A DNA stretch of 28,246 bases from a virus, in IMG/VR virus record IMGVR_UViG_3300030333_000944, positions 1 through 28,246 of that record. One strand, written 5' to 3'. The notes beneath the pieces are model-generated. The model was not told the origin of the DNA, made no database searches, and saw only the letters and a program-made list of their open reading frames with translations. Below, one piece after another: positions 1-12,322 of this stretch; the stretch's first letter is position 1; the number at the start of each line of letters is the position of its first letter. Both the position numbers and the translations under genes were made by a program.

Positions 1-597
1 TACACTAAATTTCTTTCCAATAGGTAATCTTGCTCTAGCTTCTGCTGATTGATATTTAAAACCTATATTTCCTTGTGCTCTTTGTTCTAATTTTACAATA
101 TGGTTATCACCAGTATGTCTAATAAAGAATCTTGAGTTAATCCATTCTTCTCCACGTTTTCTTTCTTTCTCATAATGAATTAAATATTCTAAACCCTTTA
201 TAGCAGCGGTAGGAGCAGATAAACCAACATTGTTTTCATCTTCACCTATACCGTTGTAAAAGTTCGCACCTTTAACCTCATAATCAAATCTTGCTAGTTT
301 TCTGATACCGATACCGTATCTATAATCGAATGGATGATATACTGTTTGATCTACAACGTCAGGAATAGCGTATAAATTGTTTGGATCAGTTCTTACAAAG
401 AATTCAGGTCTTTGTGTTTCATAAGCATTACCTATATTACCAGCAGCATAAAAAGTACTATATTTAAATAGTTCTTTATATAAATCTTTAAAGAAAGGTT
501 GTTTCTTTTTGATTTTAATTGCTTCTGTATAAGTTATTTCTTGTGCAATTATGTTACTAGAAAATAGTAACATCAATATTATTAGTAGTTTTCTCAT
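1..597 (-). CDS. Secreted, possibly outer-membrane protein (3' end outside window)
   Basis: The reading frame opens at ATG 597 and stays open for 199 codons to base 1, so the C-terminus lies outside the window. The first 19 residues (MRKLLIILMLLFSSNIIAQ) form a classic Sec signal peptide with a basic start, a hydrophobic core and an Ala-Gln end, a form very common in Bacteroidota. There is no lipobox Cys. The mature part is rich in aromatic and alternating charged residues (for example HPFDYRYGIGIRKLARFDYEV), which suggests beta strands and perhaps a barrel. It follows the 2828-residue gene by 39 bases and may be the last gene of the late operon. I do not know its function. A role at the host envelope, such as receptor masking or superinfection exclusion, is inference only. 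The signal peptide is the firm observation. Confidence 0.82.
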   Translation of the reverse strand, partial: MRKLLIILMLLFSSNIIAQEITYTEAIKIKKKQPFFKDLYKELFKYSTFYAAGNIGNAYETQRPEFFVRTDPNNLYAIPDVVDQTVYHPFDYRYGIGIRKLARFDYEVKGANFYNGIGEDENNVGLSAPTAAIKGLEYLIHYEKERKRGEEWINSRFFIRHTGDNHIVKLEQRAQGNIGFKYQSAEARARLPIGKKFSV

Positions 598-636: not shown

Positions 637-3600
637 TTACTTTTTTAACCCACGTTTTCCAGTTTTAAGAGATTTTAAGTTAATTTTAACCTCTTTTTTC
701 TTATTATTTTTCTCTTGATCAGTATTAACACCTAATTGCCAATCTCTCCAACCTAATAATATACCTAATCTTTGCCAACCAGCTAATTCACCATCTAAAA
801 TTTGAGCAGCTTGGCTCATTTTATAATATAATTTAGCAGATGGTATATTTGTAGCAGCTTCAATAAATTGGGCTCTAGCTTCCATAGATGGATTATTAGG
901 ATTAAGTGGTCCATACATTTCCATTTCATCTTGATTAAACTTCATTGTTTGTAAACCAGAGTATACTTTTCTAGCTTTACTACCTAATGGTGGTGATACA
1001 TTTATAGCTTCTATTAAAACTTGTGTCATATCTTGTTTATAAGTGTCTTTCTTTTTTTGATCACTATATTCCATAACCATGTTCTTAAGAGTTGCAATTA
1101 TAGCCATTCTATAACCCATACCTCTCAATATAGAATCAAGCATTCCATTCGCAAATCTCTTTTCACGATCAAGTTTCCTTTCATCATCTTCATCTTCAAT
1201 AAATATAGTTGCGAATAAAGCATTTTGTAACGCGTTAAATATTACGTTTTGTACACCCATGTAATAAATAATCTTTGATACATTAGTTAAATCACTTTGT
1301 TTTTGTGTCTGACCAGTGTTTCTTCTTCTATTATAAAGATCTAAAACAGCTTTTTTAGCTTGTCTATTATACTGCATTGTAACATTTTGAAACGCTAATA
1401 TAACCCTACCTAAAACACTAGCTTGTTCTTGAGATATTAAATCTGGTCTACCTGACTGCTGTGTTGTTTCAGCAATTTCTTGAAAATCTACAAAAGCTTT
1501 TTCTTTAGCTTCTTTTTCGGATAAACCTTCTTTAATATATGAATTTACCCTATTTCTATACATACTGGCACCACCTAAAGCAATAGCGAAACTATCCATT
1601 GTTTTTGTTGGTAAAAATCCTTTTTGTAATAACCAAGATATTGCGTCTTTAACTTTATTTTTAGAATTTTTAACATGTGATGCTATCTCTTGCCAGTTAA
1701 CATCTTGTTGTAATCCTGCTCTTCTTGCTTTTAAGAAATCAGAATTAAATAAATATGAAAAATCTTTCCAGAATTGTGGTTGATTAGCAAAAGCTACACC
1801 AGCTTTATAAATGTTATTATCTGTCCAGTTAACAAAGTTAGCAAATGATATTGTCTGTAATACAGCTGATCTGGTGTTAAAAAACATTATAGTTCCAGTA
1901 GCATTATTAACCCAATTCATAGCGCCATTAACATATTTGTTGCTTCCAAAATTTCTATTTGTTCCATTTTGAATACGATATAACATATCTACTAACGCAT
2001 CTTTAAAATGAGTACCATATATAGCTTCTATTTTATTCATATTTTCTTTAGAAAATATTTCATCAGCGTTTTCGTTAAATTCTTTTAAATGATGCCCTCT
2101 TCTAACGTTTTGATTTATGTCTATTAAATCTAAACCAATATTACCGTATGCCCAGTTTGCGTCTGGTTGAATATAACCTTCTTTTAATTTTGTTAATTTA
2201 CTTAATTTATCCGCAAAATCCTTCATATCAGGATCTGACTTAACTATTTTGTTTAAAGCTTTTAAATCTCTTTTTGATATACCAGGTATTTCCATACCAT
2301 GTTTGTCCCATAAATAAACTCTTATAGCATTACCAAAGTTAAAACTACTATAACCAGAATCCTTTTTTAATTTTTTATGAATTTCAGGATACTGCTTTTT
2401 TAACGCTTTATAATCGTTTTCAAGTGCTAATTTAGCAGCGTTAATATCAGCATAACCTCTAGCTAAAGGTCTAAGTAAATTTACTTCAAACCATTTCTTT
2501 TGTTTAGTACCTGCTTCACCTTTTCCTAAAAACGAGTATATTAAACCTTTAAAATCTTCAGCTGAAGCTGGTAGAAATAATCCCCAATCAGTAACCTCAG
2601 CTCCCCTCATTTTAGCAGCAGCATCAGAAAACTTTTTAAAAGCATCAACACCGGTTGTCCCTTCTATTACTTTATTAAACGCATCTCCTAATGTATCTCC
2701 AAGAGCTAGATTCATTTTAGATTTAGCTTGTTGAACATCTGATTTTACATCAAATTGATTTAATACATTTTGTACAGCTTTTACGTTTTTATAAGCATCA
2801 TCTGCAAAATAAAAATCATTATAACCTTCTGCAACTTTTTTAGTTACCCAATCTGCCTTAGCTTGTGATGTTCCATTTTCTAAACCAGTTATGTTTTTTA
2901 TTGGTATATATAACCCTAAACCTCTAGCAAATTTTTGTATTGCTCTAGCAGAAGTCTGTGGTCTAGCTGTTAATACATAAATATCTTTACTTCCAAATTT
3001 CTTTTGTCTTTTTAAAGCAAGATCAAATAAAGGACCTTTTCTTCCTTTTACAACTTTATTAAATTCACTAAAATCAAACGTAGCACCGATAGATTCAAAA
3101 GCAGCAGAATTTTTAGCAAATTCAGCAGGTGTTATTTTTTCTGTAGCATTGCTAGTCATTTTAACCTTTCCATTATGCCAAGTCTCATATCCATATTGTT
3201 TACCACCAACCATTTGCTTTGGTAGGTTTACTATAACTTTACTATCAGATATAGCTAAAGTGTCATCAAAATCTAAAATAGTAATACCCTTTTGTTTTGG
3301 ATTATTTCTTCTTGACATAGCCATTGCTTCATCAAATATTTTAAACTTATCTACTGCTAAACTTTTCTTTGCGAAATTTACATCTTTTGTACGTTGTACT
3401 CTATCTAAACCTCTTTGTGTTCTAAAATTATTACCATTGATATGATAAATATTGTCTCTATCTTTTTTCTTTAAACTATTTATTCTATCCACATGTGTTT
3501 TTAAAGGAGTTCTACCAAGTTCACCTTTATCTAATTCTGTCTGTCCAACACGTTTAATTGTACCAAGTTGTGTAAATTCAGATAAACCTTTTTTATCATC

Positions 3601-6600
3601 TAAATACCATGTATCTATATCCTGATCTTTTGCGCTTGTCACAAACCCTGCTATTCTACCCATAGCAGAGACATTAGGTTGCATATGTTCGCCATATAAT
3701 TCCGCTATTTCTTCTTTAGTAGTTCTTTGTATTCCATCTATAGTAACCCATTCCCATTTTGTTAAGCCTTTTAAACCTAATACAGCATTTTGCTGTTCTT
3801 GAAGTAATGTTAATGTATTGTTTTGATCTATTAAACTACCATTTAATGTTTTAAATTGTTCTATTATATATTTTAAAATAACAGTATTAGCAATATTAGC
3901 ATTATTTATTTCTGTTTGGTGTTCTTTTAATTTTGCTAGTTGAGCTTTTTTACCTTTTACGCTATATATATCTTTTAATATAGCTAACATTCTACCGGTT
4001 TTTGAATTCCAAACTCTCATGTCTGTAAGAGCGTTTTCTACTTCTGAAGGTAAAACTGTATTATTATTATACAATATTTCTTTAATATCTTGAACAGCAT
4101 CATGAAAAGGACCCGTTATATTTTTACCAAATTTATCTTTTTGCCAGTCAGGTTTAGGTGAAGGTAATTCTTTTAAACCTTTTTCCTTCATCATAGCAAT
4201 CTCTTCCTCAGTGTAATTTTTTGTTTTATTTTTTCGTCTAATTTCTTTTCTAGCTTCAACTGATGCTTTAGTTTCTTTTTTACCACCTGGATCTAAACCT
4301 CTTGATATATACCATAACATCATTATGTTATCAGAAATTTCTCCATCTTTTTTAGTGTACATCTCTTTGATAATTCTACCTATACCTGATGCTGCTATAA
4401 TTTTATTTTCCTCATGTAAGTCTAATTTATTATCAGCATTATGTTGATCATGGTTTTTATAATCTTGTTGTGTATTTTGATCAACACCACCTAAACTCAT
4501 TGATTTATAAAAACCACCAGTACTTGGTATACCTTTTGCTTCTAACTCTTTAATGTGAGGAATCCAAAGTGTTGAATATTTTTTTAACCTTTTGTCAGTC
4601 CATTCTGAATCAGTAGCAAAATCTTCTACTGTATCATTATCTGTATAAATAATTTTTGCAATACTTATATATTCTTTAATGTATAAATCTCCATCATTAT
4701 CAACTGGTATTTTTGAATCTAAAGCAATATTTAGTTTAGTATTACCACGATCTATTTGTCTACCTACTTCAACAGCAAAATTATCTCTTAATACTAATTC
4801 TTTTATTTCAGCATTTTTAAGAAATGACGAATGTATTTTACTTTTTGGATTTTGTATATCTCTATAAAATATATCTAATCCACCTTCTGCAGCTAACTGC
4901 TCTGATATACTTTCGGTTTTATTTTGTACAAGTGTATAATCTTCTTTACCTTTTTTATTTATAAATTTCTTTTTAAATTTATCACCCCATTCCTTATCGC
5001 TAATAACGTCCTTTAAATTAGGTTTCTTTTTCATTAATTGCTTACCATCAGTCATACCTGTAACAGATGATTTTTGTGTATCTATTTTAGCGGCTGGTAT
5101 ACCCTTCCATACAGTATGATCAACCCAATTAGGTTTAAAAACCTTTTGTTGTTTACCATTAATTTCTTCAAACACCCATTTACCACCAACTGATTTTAAT
5201 ATTGTTTCAGGTGCAAATTTAGCTAAATAACCTTTTGTAAAATTACTTAACATTGCCTCTTTATACTTTATCATGTTGTTTATAAACTCATTATTTGCTT
5301 TACCACCTAAAGCCTCTTTAACCTTAGCCATTCCATGGCGCTTAAGTTCATTTCTTATTTTACTTATATAAGGTGTTACAGTTCTATTTTTACTTACATC
5401 ATCATAAATAGTTTTACTAGATATTGCAATGTCTGCTTCTAATATTTTTACTAAATCATTAACAATATCATTTATTATACCAGCGTCTAATAAACTTATA
5501 TTACCATCAGATTCTCTTAATATTTTTACTTCTTCATATAATGCTTCTTCAATTTTGTTTTGAACAGTTGGCTCTGTTATATCTTCTGTATATTTTTCTG
5601 TAGTTGCTTCTTTTCTACCTAATATTCCAGCTATTTTTTTATCAATTTGAGCGTTAATCCAACCACTTAATGTAATTTTAGAACCTTCAACAGCTGCTTT
5701 TTCTGGATCAAAGTTTCTTATATGTGGTATTAAATCTGCTATAGTTCCTGCAATAAAATCTTCTTCACTAAAATTAGGTAAATCTCTAAATCTTTTTGCT
5801 TTAAAAGATAAATCTTTTTGCAATATTGGAAAAATATCTGCCATAGCTAAATCTGCTCCACCTTGGTTTTTCCAGTATTCTTTTGTGGTATCAGCATCAT
5901 ATGTTTTATTTATATCTGCCGCACTTTTCTTAGAAAAACCAGGTATAGGTCCTTCTTTTGCTCCTTTTATACTTGATCCAATTTTTATACCCTCTTTTGT
6001 AAACATCTTTTTTTGGGCTTTTGTAAATCTACCTTTTGCTATTGATGTATTATAATCTTTTAAAAACTTATAAAAATCCTGTTCATCATTAATCTCAATA
6101 TTTGCCCATCCAATATCCTGAAGAAATCTTCTTGTAGCATCTGCCATTTTAGTAAGTAATCCTTCTTTAAATGTTATATGTTTATAAGCTAAAGCATCAC
6201 CTAACAATGTTATAGTTTCTTCAGCGGTAAATATTTCTCCTTTTTTATCCTTTCCGTAATGGTTTTTATATTTTTGTAATCTTTGATTAAATTCAATGTA
6301 ACCTTTAGAGTTTCTATTTGGATCTTTTTCTTTAGCTTTAAGAATCAATGCTTTAGCTTGTTCAGCTAAACCTTTTACTACGCCTTTACCAGTTATTTTT
6401 CCTTTTTTACTAACTTCATATAATGTGGTAAATAAAGCAGCATGTAATACCTCATGAGCTGCTGTGTTCATTTGTCGTAATTTAGCAGCTTTTTGTTCAT
6501 CTATAATTATAGTTTTACCATCAGGACTAATATAACCTGTGGCGTCTGCGTCTAGGGCTATTGCATTTTTACCAGCTTTTTCTTTTGTATCAGCGGCATC

Positions 6601-9123
6601 TTTACCAATTATATATTTACCACCCCATTCTGTGCCTTCTAATGCTTTCCCAGCTTTTGTTGTTATTTTTCTAGTTTCAGGTAAAAATTTAGTTAATATA
6701 ATAATTTCATTATCAAGTTCTTTGATTCTATCTTTTTCTTTATTTACAACAGCTTCATCTTTACCTTCTATTTTTTTCTTTAATTGTTCCTTTTCTAAAA
6801 CTAAATCTACAAGTTTTAACCTATCTTTACCTTCTAACTCTTTTGGCAATCTTAGATTAGCGTTCCTTAAATCTTTTAAAACTTGTTTTTTATCAATGTA
6901 TTCATCTTCTCTAATACTTCCTTTCTTATAAAGTTCGTCTAAACTATTTAATTGTCTTTGAAAAAATGCTTCAGTTTTATCAAGGTTTAACTTACCCATT
7001 ATAATCCTATTAGCATTGTATAGTTCTCTAGCTGTCTGTGTTAATACCATAACACTACCTGGCATAAGACCACCAATCACAGCACCAGAACCCATAGCTT
7101 CTAAATAGTTTTCGAATTTCATGTTTTCCCATAGATCACTCCAACCACCTCTTCCTTGATCTTCTATTGCTGTTTGAATACCTTCTGTAATACTTTCTAC
7201 GAAACTTGCTCTTCCAGCTTGATAACCACCTTGTACAAGACCCCTAGTTGCTCTACCCATTTGATTTCTAATAAAAGATCCTCCAGCTTTACCAACAAAT
7301 AACTTTATTGCTTTAAATTGTGGAATAAGACCGACGAATTCTGCAGCAGCATATGGAATAGCTGCAAGATTAGCAGCTTCAGAATGTGCTCTAGCTTCTG
7401 GCGTTACGTTGTAATCTGATATAAGTTTTGCAATTTTGAGTCTATTTTTAGGATCATTAAAATCTTTATCTGATATATTGTGTTTCTTTTGTACTTCAGT
7501 TCTAAGTCTATCAAAATAAATATCACCTGAAGCTTGAACAGCTGGCGCAGCACCTAGAGTTAATGCAGCTCTAAATAATTCTGGTAACTGAGAACCAATC
7601 ATTTTTTGTAATTGACCAGTTTCTCCATTCATCATGGCTAAAAAACTACCTGCATCAAAAGCGCCATCAGTAATTTGTCTTTCCTCTATAGTCATGTAAT
7701 CCTTAATAGCTTCTTTTGTGTGTGCGGTGGTTTTATCTTTTAGTATTTTTTTAGCTTCACCCCATGTGGTTTTTTCAAGTTGACCAAAATTAGGCATAGT
7801 AAGTTCATATCCACGATTTTTGTTTGTAAAGAAATCATCGTATTCTTTTTTAGTTGGGAAAAACATACCATTTTTAAGTTTCATATTTTTTCCTGTAACT
7901 ATAAAACCTTGTTTATCGTCTCCCCAATTATATTTTTCTGATTTATATAAATTTGCATTAAAATTTTCTTGTACTGGTCCCCACTTGTAATCTGTTTTAC
8001 GTCTTAAACTATTTTTATCAGAACTTGTACCCCATCTTCTAAAAGTTGCGTACATACTATAAGGATCTAAAGGTAACATATTTGTGTTTTCCTGTAGTAA
8101 TTGTGTTGATCTTATGAAACTTCTAAATGTATTACCTGCTTTCCAACCAGTATCAATTCCTTCCGGACCTGTCCAATCTCCTAATCCTGGAAGTTTTAAA
8201 GTTTCACCATCTCTATTCATCTCTTTACCTACAACAAATTGGCTCCACATTTTTGAATTTATCTCTTCATATGCTTGGCCAAAATTATTAAGATGTTTTT
8301 GGACTCTTTCATCGTTATATACAAATTCACCTAATATTTCATTCCATTCTTTTTCAGCTGACTCAAGATCTTCATTAAAATCTTCTCTATCTGCATCACC
8401 TAAGTTATACTTTTTATTTAACTCATCTGCTAATCTATTTAATTCTTGTGATTTTTCTTGAAGTACAAATGGTATTATTTTTTCATTTAAAATTTTATCA
8501 TTTTGAACAAAATCATTTAAAACTATATCATTGAATTGTTCAACCTCAGTGAAATTTCCTTGTTCGTCAACTTTATCCCAATTTAATACATTACCAAGGT
8601 ATTGACCTTCGCTAGTAAGACTAATATCACCTGGTGAATAAAATAATTCTGGATTTTTTTGTTTATTATTAAGGTAGGATTCTTGAGCTAATTTACTATA
8701 GTTGTTTTTTATATCTAGCCTTTTTTCAAGTTCAAAATCAAAATCAGTAGGAATTCCTGCGACACCGGTGCTTTCCGCAGTCATCAGTGGTGGGGTTTCT
8801 AATTTTAATGAATTTCTGTTTTCTGAAAATTGATCTGGATTATATAATAGATCTTGTGTATCTGGATCATTTGATGTATTCCACCATTCGTTACCTGGAT
8901 CTTCTTTGCCCTCTAATAATAAACTTTCTAGTTCGTCTCCTGCTATAACGTCTGGATCCCTTGTGTCTTTCTCTCCTTCTGGTATATACTCTTCCCAACC
9001 TGGATATTTTTCTAAATATTCTTCAACACTAGATAATCCAGCTTGTTGAGCGGCCTCTAATAATTGAGAATAAGTTCTAATTTGGGAACCTTTATACCTG
9101 TATTGTTTTTCTCCGTTAGCCAT
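637..9123 (-). CDS. Giant multidomain virion/ejection protein with zincin and HAD domains
   Basis: This 2828-residue protein is the largest gene in the window and probably an internal protein ejected into the host. It has an N-terminal acidic region, Ala/Gly-rich hydrophobic stretches near residues 510-530, 580-610 and 673-695, then an HEXXH zinc-protease motif (HEVLH, 890-894) followed about 90 residues later by AEET, a possible third ligand. Next is a long Lys-rich region, then a full HAD phosphatase set: DFDDT at 1951-1955, LTARP at 2051-2055 and FADDA at 2106-2110. The C-terminal 650 residues are helical, with a hydrophobic segment around 2617-2641. The multi-enzyme build matches the published idea of phage polyvalent proteins, delivered with DNA to act on host defences. 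It starts 6 bases after the 634-residue gene. The start at 9123 is the only plausible one. Virion location and targets are inferred. Confidence 0.88.
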   Translation of the reverse strand: MANGEKQYRYKGSQIRTYSQLLEAAQQAGLSSVEEYLEKYPGWEEYIPEGEKDTRDPDVIAGDELESLLLEGKEDPGNEWWNTSNDPDTQDLLYNPDQFSENRNSLKLETPPLMTAESTGVAGIPTDFDFELEKRLDIKNNYSKLAQESYLNNKQKNPELFYSPGDISLTSEGQYLGNVLNWDKVDEQGNFTEVEQFNDIVLNDFVQNDKILNEKIIPFVLQEKSQELNRLADELNKKYNLGDADREDFNEDLESAEKEWNEILGEFVYNDERVQKHLNNFGQAYEEINSKMWSQFVVGKEMNRDGETLKLPGLGDWTGPEGIDTGWKAGNTFRSFIRSTQLLQENTNMLPLDPYSMYATFRRWGTSSDKNSLRRKTDYKWGPVQENFNANLYKSEKYNWGDDKQGFIVTGKNMKLKNGMFFPTKKEYDDFFTNKNRGYELTMPNFGQLEKTTWGEAKKILKDKTTAHTKEAIKDYMTIEERQITDGAFDAGSFLAMMNGETGQLQKMIGSQLPELFRAALTLGAAPAVQASGDIYFDRLRTEVQKKHNISDKDFNDPKNRLKIAKLISDYNVTPEARAHSEAANLAAIPYAAAEFVGLIPQFKAIKLFVGKAGGSFIRNQMGRATRGLVQGGYQAGRASFVESITEGIQTAIEDQGRGGWSDLWENMKFENYLEAMGSGAVIGGLMPGSVMVLTQTARELYNANRIIMGKLNLDKTEAFFQRQLNSLDELYKKGSIREDEYIDKKQVLKDLRNANLRLPKELEGKDRLKLVDLVLEKEQLKKKIEGKDEAVVNKEKDRIKELDNEIIILTKFLPETRKITTKAGKALEGTEWGGKYIIGKDAADTKEKAGKNAIALDADATGYISPDGKTIIIDEQKAAKLRQMNTAAHEVLHAALFTTLYEVSKKGKITGKGVVKGLAEQAKALILKAKEKDPNRNSKGYIEFNQRLQKYKNHYGKDKKGEIFTAEETITLLGDALAYKHITFKEGLLTKMADATRRFLQDIGWANIEINDEQDFYKFLKDYNTSIAKGRFTKAQKKMFTKEGIKIGSSIKGAKEGPIPGFSKKSAADINKTYDADTTKEYWKNQGGADLAMADIFPILQKDLSFKAKRFRDLPNFSEEDFIAGTIADLIPHIRNFDPEKAAVEGSKITLSGWINAQIDKKIAGILGRKEATTEKYTEDITEPTVQNKIEEALYEEVKILRESDGNISLLDAGIINDIVNDLVKILEADIAISSKTIYDDVSKNRTVTPYISKIRNELKRHGMAKVKEALGGKANNEFINNMIKYKEAMLSNFTKGYLAKFAPETILKSVGGKWVFEEINGKQQKVFKPNWVDHTVWKGIPAAKIDTQKSSVTGMTDGKQLMKKKPNLKDVISDKEWGDKFKKKFINKKGKEDYTLVQNKTESISEQLAAEGGLDIFYRDIQNPKSKIHSSFLKNAEIKELVLRDNFAVEVGRQIDRGNTKLNIALDSKIPVDNDGDLYIKEYISIAKIIYTDNDTVEDFATDSEWTDKRLKKYSTLWIPHIKELEAKGIPSTGGFYKSMSLGGVDQNTQQDYKNHDQHNADNKLDLHEENKIIAASGIGRIIKEMYTKKDGEISDNIMMLWYISRGLDPGGKKETKASVEARKEIRRKNKTKNYTEEEIAMMKEKGLKELPSPKPDWQKDKFGKNITGPFHDAVQDIKEILYNNNTVLPSEVENALTDMRVWNSKTGRMLAILKDIYSVKGKKAQLAKLKEHQTEINNANIANTVILKYIIEQFKTLNGSLIDQNNTLTLLQEQQNAVLGLKGLTKWEWVTIDGIQRTTKEEIAELYGEHMQPNVSAMGRIAGFVTSAKDQDIDTWYLDDKKGLSEFTQLGTIKRVGQTELDKGELGRTPLKTHVDRINSLKKKDRDNIYHINGNNFRTQRGLDRVQRTKDVNFAKKSLAVDKFKIFDEAMAMSRRNNPKQKGITILDFDDTLAISDSKVIVNLPKQMVGGKQYGYETWHNGKVKMTSNATEKITPAEFAKNSAAFESIGATFDFSEFNKVVKGRKGPLFDLALKRQKKFGSKDIYVLTARPQTSARAIQKFARGLGLYIPIKNITGLENGTSQAKADWVTKKVAEGYNDFYFADDAYKNVKAVQNVLNQFDVKSDVQQAKSKMNLALGDTLGDAFNKVIEGTTGVDAFKKFSDAAAKMRGAEVTDWGLFLPASAEDFKGLIYSFLGKGEAGTKQKKWFEVNLLRPLARGYADINAAKLALENDYKALKKQYPEIHKKLKKDSGYSSFNFGNAIRVYLWDKHGMEIPGISKRDLKALNKIVKSDPDMKDFADKLSKLTKLKEGYIQPDANWAYGNIGLDLIDINQNVRRGHHLKEFNENADEIFSKENMNKIEAIYGTHFKDALVDMLYRIQNGTNRNFGSNKYVNGAMNWVNNATGTIMFFNTRSAVLQTISFANFVNWTDNNIYKAGVAFANQPQFWKDFSYLFNSDFLKARRAGLQQDVNWQEIASHVKNSKNKVKDAISWLLQKGFLPTKTMDSFAIALGGASMYRNRVNSYIKEGLSEKEAKEKAFVDFQEIAETTQQSGRPDLISQEQASVLGRVILAFQNVTMQYNRQAKKAVLDLYNRRRNTGQTQKQSDLTNVSKIIYYMGVQNVIFNALQNALFATIFIEDEDDERKLDREKRFANGMLDSILRGMGYRMAIIATLKNMVMEYSDQKKKDTYKQDMTQVLIEAINVSPPLGSKARKVYSGLQTMKFNQDEMEMYGPLNPNNPSMEARAQFIEAATNIPSAKLYYKMSQAAQILDGELAGWQRLGILLGWRDWQLGVNTDQEKNNKKKEVKINLKSLKTGKRGLKK
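2806..3273 (-). other. HAD-superfamily phosphatase domain
   Basis: Within the giant protein, residues about 1951-2106 carry all the core HAD motifs in the right order. The nucleophile motif is ILDFDDTL, with Asp at 1951 and 1953. Motif II is VLTARP, with Thr 2052. Lysines suited to motif III occur between them, and motif IV is DFYFADDA with paired acids at 2108-2109. The spacing of about 155 residues includes a cap insertion with GRKGPLFDLALKR. A phosphatase acting on nucleotides or nucleic-acid ends is a reasonable guess, but the substrate cannot be read from the sequence. Confidence 0.8.
6442..6456 (-). other. HEXXH zincin metallopeptidase motif
   Basis: These codons read His-Glu-Val-Leu-His, residues 890-894 of the giant protein, within the helix-like context MNTAAHEVLHAALF. 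The segment just before contains IIIDEQKA, giving the strand-then-helix arrangement seen in small phage zincins. A downstream FTAEETITLLGDAL could supply the third zinc ligand. Peptidase activity is inferred from the motif only. Confidence 0.65.
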
Positions 9124-9129
9124 ATTATA

Positions 9130-11034
9130 TTAGTTATATTTTGCATACCTGTTACCCTTTTTGAACATAGCTAAATACTCTCCTATAAAGTAGTTTTTAG
9201 CATTATCATTTAAATTAGCATTATTTATAATCCATTTATATATATCCTTCTGATCGTTTAACTTAAAAGGAGTTGATTTCATCTCACCACCTTTTTCTTG
9301 ATATATTGGAGAATTACCTAGATTATCTGTAAACATTTTTTCAAACTCAGGTGTATACCCTTTAGTTGGATCACCATCTACCCATATTTCTTCTTTAAAT
9401 GCTTCTTCATTTTTCTTTGCTGTGCCAAAAAATCCTGCAGGAATTTTATACTTTTCCTCTAAATCTTTATAATCTGTAGTTAAGAAATCATCAATTAGTT
9501 GATCTGCAAATGAAGATTTTGCATCATCTTGATTCATTAAAGTTAATTCAGTTGGATTACCAGTATATTCATTAACTAATTCTACTAAATCATTTATTTC
9601 AGCTTCACCAAAATCTTTTGGATCTTTCTTTGATATAATTGCTCCTTTATTATTTATATTGTATAATAATAAATCAATTCTATTTCTAATATCTTCCTCT
9701 TGATTTACGAATGCTCTAACACCAGTAATTGATCCACCACCACCAGTACCAGTTGGTGTTGGTTTAAATTTCCAAGGAGTACGAACATTATCTAATATTC
9801 TTTCTACTACAAAATTTTCAACTTGTTCACGTTGTGTTAAAGGTTCAGTAATTGTATCACCATTAGCATCAACACGTGTGTACATCACTTGTTTTGTTGC
9901 GGCATCATATTTATAACTACCACCCCAAGATAATGTAACTCCATCAAAGTTTTTATCTGTCACCACTGCTCCAGGCATATATTGATTAGGATTAGAATAA
10001 CCATTTATAAAACCTGTTTTTGGATCTAATATCATATTGTTATATATAAACCCATAGTCTACATTATAATCTTCCTCACTATCTCCAGTTGAAAATCCAA
10101 GTTCAAAATTTTTAGCATGTTGAAAAGCTTCATGTAAAATAAAAGCTTGCTTATCTTTAACACTTAAATCTTTATGGATAGACGTTAAATCAGCATCAAT
10201 TAGTTTACCTTCATCTTGAAACTCTTTAGTTGCAAAATCTTTACCAGCTTCATTAGTTATAAATAGTTTTTGACCGGCAATTATTTCTCTCAAAGTAATT
10301 GTTCTGTCTTGACCGTTTTTATCTTTATACCTTATTATACCAGTTTGACTGTGACTTTTATATCCTTTTTTATGTTGTCTTTTTGTTTTACCTTTAATTC
10401 TATCGGCTCCAATTCCTAAAAACCCTGCTTTCATTTTTTTAATCTCATCCCAATCCATATCATACTCGTCAAATGTTATATCAAAAGCACCATCTTGTGT
10501 ATTTGTAGCTATATGATCCATGAAAGCCGCGAAGTTATTATGATCTTTCATTGCCGACCAATTAATATTATTTAGATTTAACTGACCAGCATTTACATTT
10601 TGTAATACTGCATCAATTTGAGTTTTATACTGTTGAGCCCATGCCATTCTTTGGTTTTGTACTCTTTGCTCTGCTGCCGATAACTCATCCCAATGTTTAC
10701 CACTACCTTTTACTGGCACATAACCACCGGCTCCATTATTAATTGTTGGATCCCATTCCATATCATAAAAAATCTCACTCATACCTCTTTCTAAAGCTTC
10801 TTGTGAGTTTTGTTTAATTTTACCACCTACAGTCTCTCCAAAAAGATTTTTCTCTTCTTCAGATACTTGAAGTGCAGCGCCAACCGTTTTCCCCATATCC
10901 ATCCAAGCCTTGTGTATATTTTCGTTCATCTCAGCATAATTAGGTAGCTCAGCAACTTTACCTGTTCTCCATGGACCCAAAGGTGCATCTCTAGGTAATT
11001 GTATGTGTGGTCTCCATTGTTCTATTCTAGCCAT
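9130..11034 (-). CDS. Putative internal virion protein
   Basis: This is a 634-residue soluble protein with no signal peptide or membrane segment. It lies between the S74-bearing protein and the giant protein, where short-tailed phages keep their ejectosome genes. The N-terminal third (MARIEQWRPHIQLPRDAPLG and a helical, Gln-rich segment to about residue 170) may pack against its neighbours. A basic patch near 210-230 (KGKTKRQHKKGYKSHS) could touch nucleic acid. A Gly-rich linker (TGTGGGG, near residue 425) separates it from an acidic helical C-terminal part. An HEAFQH string at 301-306 is not a zincin motif. The gene starts 2 bases after the upstream stop in an A/T leader (AGAATATAATT) without a Shine-Dalgarno sequence. 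The role is assigned from position only, since I recognise no enzymatic domain. Confidence 0.7.
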   Translation of the reverse strand: MARIEQWRPHIQLPRDAPLGPWRTGKVAELPNYAEMNENIHKAWMDMGKTVGAALQVSEEEKNLFGETVGGKIKQNSQEALERGMSEIFYDMEWDPTINNGAGGYVPVKGSGKHWDELSAAEQRVQNQRMAWAQQYKTQIDAVLQNVNAGQLNLNNINWSAMKDHNNFAAFMDHIATNTQDGAFDITFDEYDMDWDEIKKMKAGFLGIGADRIKGKTKRQHKKGYKSHSQTGIIRYKDKNGQDRTITLREIIAGQKLFITNEAGKDFATKEFQDEGKLIDADLTSIHKDLSVKDKQAFILHEAFQHAKNFELGFSTGDSEEDYNVDYGFIYNNMILDPKTGFINGYSNPNQYMPGAVVTDKNFDGVTLSWGGSYKYDAATKQVMYTRVDANGDTITEPLTQREQVENFVVERILDNVRTPWKFKPTPTGTGGGGSITGVRAFVNQEEDIRNRIDLLLYNINNKGAIISKKDPKDFGEAEINDLVELVNEYTGNPTELTLMNQDDAKSSFADQLIDDFLTTDYKDLEEKYKIPAGFFGTAKKNEEAFKEEIWVDGDPTKGYTPEFEKMFTDNLGNSPIYQEKGGEMKSTPFKLNDQKDIYKWIINNANLNDNAKNYFIGEYLAMFKKGNRYAKYN

Positions 11035-11036
11035 AA

Positions 11037-11915
11037 TTATATTCTTTTAAATTCTACGTCTAATTTTGAATAATCTACTAAATCATAACCATCCGCATGT
11101 TTAGTAACAGCATGTTGAGGAATCTCATCAGATATGACACCTTGAAATAATCCTTTACCAAACGCTTTGTTTATATATTCAAAGGTATATATTTTTAATC
11201 CATTAGGAGAATATCCTATTAATTTTATATTTCTCTTTAATCTTCTATCACTAGCCGCATAAGTTTGCATACCAGCACTAACAGCTTGTGGAATTGCTTG
11301 ACCTATAATTTGAGTTTGCTGAGCTTCCATTTTATATTGATTTGTTCTGTTTCCAGCTGCAAGTCCAGCTTGTCTATCTAAATATTGTAAATCTCTTTGC
11401 TCTTGAACATTAAACTGCCAAGCTCTACCCTCAGCTGTCATAGCTTGCATTCTTCTAGCTTCACCCATTCTCATTTGCATTGCCGCTTGTTCACCCTGAG
11501 CTGCATATAATTGATTTCTAGCTTCTTGTTGTCCTATACTAGCCGCGATACCTCTTTTTGATGATAATGCTCCTTGTGCTAAAGCTGTTGCTCCACCACC
11601 ACCAAATCCAAAAGCTCTACTTTGATCTAACATATTCGCTAAAGCTATATCACTTTGTTCTGCTTGAAATTCTGCTGTTTTCGTAGATACTTGGAGATTT
11701 GCAAATGGATTAGATACCATTGAGGACAAGTCTCCCATTTGATCATAAGGATTTATAACATCCTGTCTACTTGCTTCTCTAGCCTCCATTTTTGCTTCGG
11801 CTGTATTAGCTCTATTTCTTGCTCTTTTAGCTTTGTCAGAAGCCACCTTCGCTGATATAGCGCTACCTGCTAATGATGCTCCTGCTACGATTGCTGCTGC
11901 TGTTACTATTCCCAT
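11037..11915 (-). CDS. Internal virion-like protein with C-terminal S74 autoprotease/chaperone domain
   Basis: This protein has 292 residues. Residues 2-22 form an Ala/Gly-rich hydrophobic segment (MGIVTAAAIVAGASLAGSA), followed by an Arg/Ala/Glu coiled coil to about 55 and then Gln/Ala/Met-rich helices to about 215. This build recalls the small T7-type internal core proteins. The end is different: SDRRLKRNIK at 222-231 is the signature of the peptidase S74 intramolecular chaperone, with the expected Ser 222 and Lys 227 pair. It is followed by SPNGLKIYTFEY and SDEIPQHAV, which are typical of that family. In tail spikes this domain cuts itself off just before the Ser after trimerisation. Here cleavage would release 71 residues. 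The gene sits 2 bases from each neighbour. The S74 assignment is strong; the ejection role is inferred. Confidence 0.82.
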   Translation of the reverse strand: MGIVTAAAIVAGASLAGSAISAKVASDKAKRARNRANTAEAKMEAREASRQDVINPYDQMGDLSSMVSNPFANLQVSTKTAEFQAEQSDIALANMLDQSRAFGFGGGGATALAQGALSSKRGIAASIGQQEARNQLYAAQGEQAAMQMRMGEARRMQAMTAEGRAWQFNVQEQRDLQYLDRQAGLAAGNRTNQYKMEAQQTQIIGQAIPQAVSAGMQTYAASDRRLKRNIKLIGYSPNGLKIYTFEYINKAFGKGLFQGVISDEIPQHAVTKHADGYDLVDYSKLDVEFKRI

Positions 11916-11917
11916 AA

Positions 11918-12322
11918 TTATATCATTTTTGTTAGTTCGTAAGATGGTTTTGGCTCAACAATCCATCCTAATTTCTTTTTTATTTCTATTAATTTATTAT
12001 TTCTACCTACGGCAAATAAAGCTCTAACACCCTTTCTACTATATATATCTTGAACGCTTGTTATTAATAGCTCTATAGCTTGTTTTCTATCCTTATCTCT
12101 ATATTTAGGATTTGAAACTATCCACTCAAATAAATACCATTTTGAATTTGTTTCATAAACAAACCCGCAAACAATAGGTATTCCATTTTTTTCCACCATG
12201 TAGCCACCTGTTCCGTTATTAGGTAAAAACTCTTTTGGTAAAACTGGCCAATCCCATTTTACCCACCAATCAGAGAAGATGTCATAATCTTCTTCTTTTA
12301 ATTTTCTAACATTTAATTCCAT
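11918..12322 (-). CDS. GNAT-family N-acetyltransferase-like protein
   Basis: This is a 134-residue protein of a size usual for a single GNAT fold. The N-terminus MELNVRKLKEEDYD is the usual first strand and helix. A middle strand pair covers GGYMVEKNGIPIVCGFVYE and WYLFEWIVSNPKYRDKD, where the beta-4 strand leads to the acetyl-CoA loop. That loop is degenerate: YRDKDRKQAIELLI takes the place of the canonical Gln/Arg-x-x-Gly-x-Gly/Ala. The last strands include ALFAVGRNNKLIEIKKKLGW, the common Asn-then-helix that leads into a final strand. The substrate is unknown. The gene sits tightly inside the ejection-protein cluster (2 bases before the next start), so its product may be packaged or may modify virion proteins, but that is inference. 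The altered CoA loop leaves real doubt about catalysis. Confidence 0.7.
   Translation of the reverse strand: MELNVRKLKEEDYDIFSDWWVKWDWPVLPKEFLPNNGTGGYMVEKNGIPIVCGFVYETNSKWYLFEWIVSNPKYRDKDRKQAIELLITSVQDIYSRKGVRALFAVGRNNKLIEIKKKLGWIVEPKPSYELTKMI

Follow-up and report, generated by a model that had tools for sequence, protein, structure and literature searches.

The window analyzed here is a 28-kb fragment, a virus record of 28,246 bases, which in the direction of transcription encodes a terminase, a portal and further head proteins, a phrog_13704 virion structural protein that we take to be the major capsid protein, tail-region proteins, an acetyltransferase-like protein and, at the end, proteins of 292, 634 and 2828 amino acids. 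The largest of these, P0001, had been reported as a 2828-residue open reading frame in a preliminary description of this DNA, which named no strand. We confirmed the reading frame and assigned it to the minus strand, with an ATG at position 9123 and a stop codon ending at position 637. Its gene is the last of the virion module, and the protein is the last and largest member of a three-gene ejection-like set (Table 1). Downstream of it, an open reading frame cut by the contig end (positions 1 to 597, minus strand) had no family match.

Comparing the whole of P0001 with viral contigs, Pfam, PHROGs and PDB sequences yielded almost no matches; MT836673 matched it at 22.6%, and the PDB sequence match was a "ferric anguibactin-binding protein" (E = 0.001). 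Of the hydrophobic segments that the preliminary description had ascribed to the protein, one proved clear (Table 1), while a second, at residues 2624 to 2642, was only borderline (mean Kyte-Doolittle value, 1.32). A possible polymerase motif, DNDGD at residue 1475, was set aside, as it occurs once and lies outside the conserved blocks.

Table 1. Features of the ejection-like gene set and of the domains encoded within P0001
Feature	Position	Strand	Basis
P0001, predicted ejection protein of the virion module	637..9123	-	ORF; synteny; 88 full-length family members
Hydrophobic stretch, aa 676-694	7042..7098	-	Kyte-Doolittle mean 1.52 over 19 residues
Zincin-like metallopeptidase, aa 847-1039; HEVLH 890-894; E969 third-ligand candidate	6007..6585	-	Family HMM, E 1e-38
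Sigma-70 region-2-like domain, aa 1069-1176	5596..5919	-	AlphaFold2 model (residues 225-332); profile vs PDB sequences
Conserved domain, no known relative, aa 1239-1465	4729..5409	-	Iterated HMM matches 40/88; partly pLDDT >90
HAD domain, T4 Pnkp 3'-phosphatase type, aa 1939-2134	2722..3309	-	HMM 71/88; VIA-align; phrog_415
All-helical conserved C-terminal domain, aa 2148-2805	709..2682	-	HMM 88/88 (relatives selected by it)
634-aa protein, second gene of the ejection-like set	9130..11034	-	Position and size
292-aa protein, first gene of the ejection-like set, hydrophobic/Gly-Ala N-terminus	11037..11915	-	Alignment with syntenic proteins
Acetyltransferase-like protein, phrog_17252, synteny marker	11918..12322	-	Alignment with syntenic genes, one annotated acetyltransferase

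Synteny of the virion module

The terminase, portal and phrog_13704 proteins matched podoviruses of Flavobacterium, Cellulophaga and Maribacter as well as a freshwater-spring genome, and the terminase and portal also matched Tenacibaculum podoviruses. The gene order of the window is common to MW202828, Elemovirus and phi38:1, and the slot of P0001 is filled by giant proteins of 3859 amino acids in MW202828, 3694 in Elemovirus, 1829 in Panino, 1691 in phi38:1 and 1935 in phi18:3. The Gundel_1 giant (2482 amino acids) is found in a rearranged order, adjoining the terminase. Proteins at this position are annotated as structural in Elemovirus, phi38:1 and Gundel, and the one in phi18:3 is annotated as detected in virions by MS/MS. 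Synteny with Elemovirus, phi38:1, phi18:3 and Gundel thus supports the ejection-protein position that had been proposed for P0001.

The remaining members of the set fit the same layout. The 292-residue protein matched phrog_6121, a virion structural family (E = 1.7e-8), and its C-terminus contains a Peptidase_S74-like stretch at a sub-threshold level (E = 0.019); wherever we aligned them, the giant genes of the relatives were likewise preceded by a smaller gene whose product has a hydrophobic, Gly/Ala-rich N-terminus. For the 634-residue protein there was no family match of weight in Pfam or PHROGs, and a middle-sized gene occupies its slot in MW202828, Elemovirus, phi38:1, phi18:3 and Gundel. 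By analogy, the three-gene layout is that of podovirus ejection operons, and the phage, a short-tailed virus of marine and freshwater bacteria, probably injects its giant protein together with its DNA. For P0001 itself, delivery into the host along with the DNA is predicted indirectly, from its position and from the MS/MS annotation of phi18:3 gp123. The acetyltransferase-like gene, the profile of which was too divergent for scanning, stays just before the ejection genes even in distant flavophages.

Family and domain architecture of P0001

The P0001 family is large. A scan with the phrog_13704 protein returned at least 600 confirmed relatives, and one with the conserved C-terminus of P0001 returned at least 588. 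A relative of P0001 was present in 19 of 50 records from the former scan, and the latter added 80 loci, 68 of them with complete open reading frames. The resulting 88 full-length proteins, P0001 included, range from 1919 to 4044 amino acids. In HMM mapping, the zincin was found in 83, the sigma-like domain in 47, the HAD domain in 71 and the helical C-terminal domain in 88, counts that are biased in that the second batch had been chosen by similarity to the P0001 C-terminus. The 20 proteins of the first batch, P0001 among them, had been picked with the capsid-region gene and, in a second step, by matching P0001; HExxH was present in 14 of them and HAD in 6. The order of zincin, sigma-like domain (where present), HAD (where present) and C-terminal domain never varied among the 88 proteins.

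The HEXXH motif reported earlier for residues 890 to 894 reads HEVLH and occurs once in P0001. Shuffling the protein (n = 2000) generated HExxH in 2.25% of cases and the HAD pattern hhDhDDT in 0.15%, so that the motifs alone are modest evidence, and it is their conservation in the relatives that settles both. H890, E891, H894 and E969 were invariant in 58 aligned members selected for HExxH; in an alignment made without this selection (A5), the E969 column was invariant in 59 members and the HExxH residues were conserved in at least 90%. In the modelled secondary structure, HExxH lies in a helix that follows two short strands, and E969 lies in a later helix, an arrangement that has been described for metallopeptidases in polyvalent proteins (PMC5512222). 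The HExxH motif and the conserved downstream glutamate mark the domain as a predicted zincin. Profile searches, which the preliminary description had suggested as a check, gave a sub-threshold match to Pfam Peptidase_M78 at this site (E = 0.065), and LPD14 was found by them in a relative (E = 9.7e-6) and not in P0001. The zincin HMM also matched Elemovirus gp18 (5.7e-11) and the MW202828 giant (3.9e-7). Against PDB sequences the zincin profile gave weak matches (aureolysin, E = 0.16), and in the fold comparison of the model covering residues 845 to 1480 the list was filled by sigma factors.

A full set of HAD motifs had been placed at residues 1951 to 2110, and we indeed found all four motifs there: DFDDT (1951-1955), LTARP (2051-2055), K2089 and DD (2108-2109). 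D1951, D1953, T1955, T2052, K2089, D2108 and D2109 were invariant in 43 and in 59 family members in two alignments. An AlphaFold2 model of residues 1925 to 2815 (pLDDT 79.9) was compared by VIA-align, and its HAD part was closest to the 3'-phosphatase of T4 Pnkp (Z = 13.9; 2.6 Å over 128 residues, ∼17% identity), followed by Pnkp1 (13.6) and T4 PNK (13.1 and 12.2), with other HAD proteins at Z scores of 10.9 or lower. The best PHROG match of the P0001 HAD was weak (E = 0.041) and concerned phrog_415, "polynucleotide kinase"; this family was the best match for all five kinase-free HAD domains tested, reaching 8e-10 only in L117. Searching PDB sequences with the HAD profile returned only ResA-like noise, and tblastn of the HAD segment against phage records returned no match. 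The idea of a protease and a phosphatase in one chain stands as far as the zincin and HAD domains go, but the modelled HAD resembles a polynucleotide 3'-phosphatase and not a generic phosphatase. We infer 3'-phosphatase activity from its fold and its invariant catalytic residues. This T4 Pnkp-like character had been overlooked in the preliminary description, as had the sigma-70 region-2-like domain at residues 1069 to 1176.

The relationship to Pnkp was also apparent in nine relatives (L147, L151, L159, L169, L178, L179, L192, L198 and L207), in which a P-loop kinase of ∼190 amino acids is nested between HAD motifs I and II. It matched AAA_33, zeta toxin and the phrog_505 polynucleotide kinase, and judged by sequence it would form with the surrounding HAD a nested kinase-phosphatase of the Pnkp type. 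The pairing of kinase and HAD is that of T4 Pnkp and bacterial Pnkp1, but the kinase is inserted between the two motifs rather than fused N-terminally, and the HAD resides in a virion-module protein rather than in a free enzyme. At the same insertion point, L115 carries an ART-PolyVal-like domain (residues ∼2003 to 2140; E = 3.9e-6 to 4e-4, below the curated cut-off), so that the site resembles a hot spot of enzyme gain. Searching 28 relatives for an RNA ligase gene (PF09414) detected one in five of them, in three cases above the curated cut-off; a search with RNA_lig_T4_1 gave no matches, its controls being silent as well. PF09414 genes at L219 to L221 are compatible with an RNA repair pathway.

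The long C-terminal helical domain of the preliminary description was likewise recovered, as this region is all-helical in the same AlphaFold2 model. Among its fold matches in BFVD (10 to 16% identity) were numerous phage proteins bearing the name large polyvalent protein, ART-PolyVal or PolyVal ADP-ribosyltransferase. The comparison with the PDB gave no match of weight, which we do not regard as evidence of a new fold. The C-terminal HMM matched Gundel_1 gp074 (E = 1.1e-10 to 3.9e-10), and gp074 in turn matched phi18:3 gp123 (3.7e-14) and phi38:1 gp101 (2.4e-16) through its N-terminal region. This chain of homology from the P0001 C-terminus by way of gp074 to gp123 and gp101 supports the reading of P0001 as an ejection protein.

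Like phage-type large polyvalent proteins, P0001 is a very long chain, encoded among virion genes, that joins several domains unrelated to one another. Named domains of this class are present as well, the zincin in P0001 itself and ART-PolyVal and LPD14 only in its relatives. Wall-cutting domains, namely GH108 (L142 and L148) and SLT (L150), also occur in the giant chains of relatives, as expected of proteins that cross the cell wall. The family thus shares with the polyvalent proteins of Iyer et al. (2017) the zincin hub, ART-PolyVal, LPD14 and lysozyme-like domains and the C-terminal fold (PMC5512222), and the preliminary description is supported in assigning P0001, as a virion-module protein, to the polyvalent class. 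The main text of the 2017 survey contains none of the words "phosphatase," "haloacid" and "sigma" (PMC5512222), which makes the HAD and sigma-like domains look like additions to the known repertoire.

The sigma-70 region-2-like domain

When the AlphaFold2 model of residues 845 to 1480 (pLDDT 73) was submitted to Foldseek, sigma factors dominated the list, with weak E-values (best, 0.39). In VIA-align, 49 of the 50 entries listed were sigma factors with Z scores of 5.3 to 8.1, all aligned to residues 1069 to 1176; rmsd values were typically 2 to 3 Å over ∼90 residues, with a few poorer rows of up to 11.3 Å. A Z score of ∼8 is middling for helical folds. A sequence profile built from 35 members independently pointed the same way, as 31 of its 34 matches to PDB sequences were sigma factors (WhiG counted; best E = 3e-4), and one relative matched Pfam Sigma70_r2 at 9.6e-4. 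The P0001 segment itself had no Pfam match. In a profile-profile comparison with the free sigma factors encoded by these phages, a longer segment aligned region 2 in register (E = 7.9e-4, probability 25%), compared with 0.31 for a control domain; hhalign with a short segment was negative, and a subset profile (A9) dissented, finding enoyl-CoA hydratases and no sigma factors. Since fold and sequence pattern otherwise agree, we consider it quite probable that residues 1069 to 1176 adopt the fold of sigma-70 region 2.

The predicted helical core and the sequence profile are those of region 2 in bacterial sigma factors such as sigmaS, sigma32, sigmaK and SigE, but P0001 differs from these proteins in that no region 1, 3 or 4 was detected and in that the domain lies inside a giant virion-module protein. 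For region 4, the helix-turn-helix recognizing the -35 element, there was no Pfam match in P0001 or its relatives, and we therefore do not class P0001 as a complete sigma factor. In our alignments, the sigma-like domain only partly keeps the aromatics of sigma region 2.3 that serve promoter melting. No convincing sigma-like or HAD match emerged from HMM mapping of the giants of Elemovirus, phi38:1, phi18:3, MW202828 and Panino. As these are the closest isolates, virion proteomics covers the gene position and the distant homologues but not the architecture of P0001.

A separate sigma factor of ∼260 amino acids was detected with Pfam Sigma70_r2 in 9 of 50 relatives, in a search that did not match the giant protein; at L213 to L218, it is encoded elsewhere in the genome. 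A search of 33 records detected no beta subunit of a bacterial-type RNA polymerase (controls positive, 14/14), so that these phages probably rely on the host RNA polymerase. A search for T7-type RNA_pol gave no matches, with controls silent as well. A phrase search of the literature for sigma factors that are packaged or injected returned no paper.

Following the sigma-like domain, the segment of residues 1239 to 1465 is well conserved and partly modelled with confidence.

Possible actions at genome entry

Taken together, these observations make it rather probable, in our judgment, that a flavobacterial-type podovirus has in P0001 its large ejection protein, a beads-on-string polyvalent protein that takes the place of T7 gp16 or N4 gp50 and acts at entry. 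N4 gp50, the virion RNA polymerase of Schitoviridae, belongs to an operon of gp50, gp51 and gp52 of about 3500, 644 and 150 amino acids, and it carries an HExxH domain (C1) followed by a helical domain (C2) and is considered to move in beads-on-a-string fashion (PMC12633501). P0001 shares with it the giant size, the three-gene operon and the succession of HExxH and a large helical C-terminus, but where N4 has a complete single-chain RNA polymerase, P0001 has a domain resembling sigma region 2 and a phosphatase of the Pnkp type, and no polymerase was found. The likeness to N4 gp50 and T7 gp16 is one of place and build, no sequence relation to N4 having been seen. The Pfam search detected in P0001 no wall-cutting domain like that of T7 gp16, and we therefore propose that it works like gp16 and do not claim it as a homologue. 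Among cultured phages, Elemovirus gp18, phi38:1 gp101, phi18:3 gp123 and Gundel_1 gp074 share with it the gene position or the three-gene set, and homology extends to the zincin in gp18 and to the C-terminal domain in gp074, but they have other central regions and no convincing HAD or sigma-like domain.

As an ejection protein of this kind, P0001 would be packaged in the head and leave through the tail with its 292- and 634-residue partners, and its helical C-terminal domain may serve packaging, the channel or both. The zincin, judging by its class, might cut the P0001 chain itself or a partner, either before or after ejection. Once in the cytoplasm, the sigma-like domain could bind the core of the host RNA polymerase, which would then be brought to the entering DNA or drawn away from host promoters. 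The HAD domain would remove 3'-phosphates from RNA or DNA ends as a step of end healing, which in some relatives may be completed by the nested kinase together with an RNA ligase encoded by its own gene. A more specific proposal, which we regard as tentative, is that the injected sigma domain replaces the injected RNA polymerase of N4, capturing host polymerase on the entering genome and so permitting transcription before any phage protein is made, with Pnkp-type end repair alongside. Giant ejected proteins are known, and the role of their middle domains is known for few phages. This family provides a testable case of a virion-module protein with a transcription-initiation module and an end-healing enzyme, and if the sigma-like domain works, it would explain immediate early transcription in phages without their own polymerase. 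The domain combination suggests that the virus begins to take control of the cell ahead of any protein synthesis of its own, and cultured phages with same-position proteins (Gundel_1, Elemovirus and phi18:3) offer an entry point at the bench.

The preliminary description had envisaged a first strike against host defences. In such a scheme, the zincin would cut host defence proteins, and the HAD domain would disarm defence signals or repair tRNAs cut by anticodon nucleases, thereby protecting the incoming genome. The polyvalent class of P0001 is in keeping with this, and T4 counters PrrC-type anticodon nucleases with a kinase/phosphatase and an RNA ligase (see PMC2610378), a set to which the Pnkp-like HAD, the nested kinase of some relatives and the RNA ligase gene of 5 out of 28 correspond. 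However, with HAD in 71 and zincin in 83 of the 88 proteins, both domains are near-core rather than switchable among the closest relatives, which housekeeping fits at least as well, and in most relatives no RNA ligase was detected. The sigma-like domain speaks for a take-over of transcription no less than for anti-defence. We therefore see only a modest chance for this explanation, possible chiefly by way of the repair of cut tRNAs.

It seems unlikely that the domains of P0001 serve only virion maturation or passage through the envelope, with the sigma-like domain acting as a packing module without a role in transcription. The structural annotation of the same-position proteins would agree with this, as would the partial loss of the promoter-melting aromatics and the proposal of Iyer et al. 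(2017) that the metallopeptidases of polyvalent proteins autoprocess their chains (PMC5512222). Nevertheless, strictly invariant HAD catalytic residues are not needed by a purely structural part, and neither does the insertion of extra enzymes (P-loop kinase and ART) at one HAD site fit such a part.

Still less likely is that the sigma-like domain is a decoy, keeping the host core polymerase from host sigma factors and thus shutting down host transcription while a separate phage sigma serves the phage genes, for such a factor occurs in a minority of the relatives (their contigs being partial), even though its presence in 9 of 50 and the finding of region 2 alone in the giant protein would suit that role.
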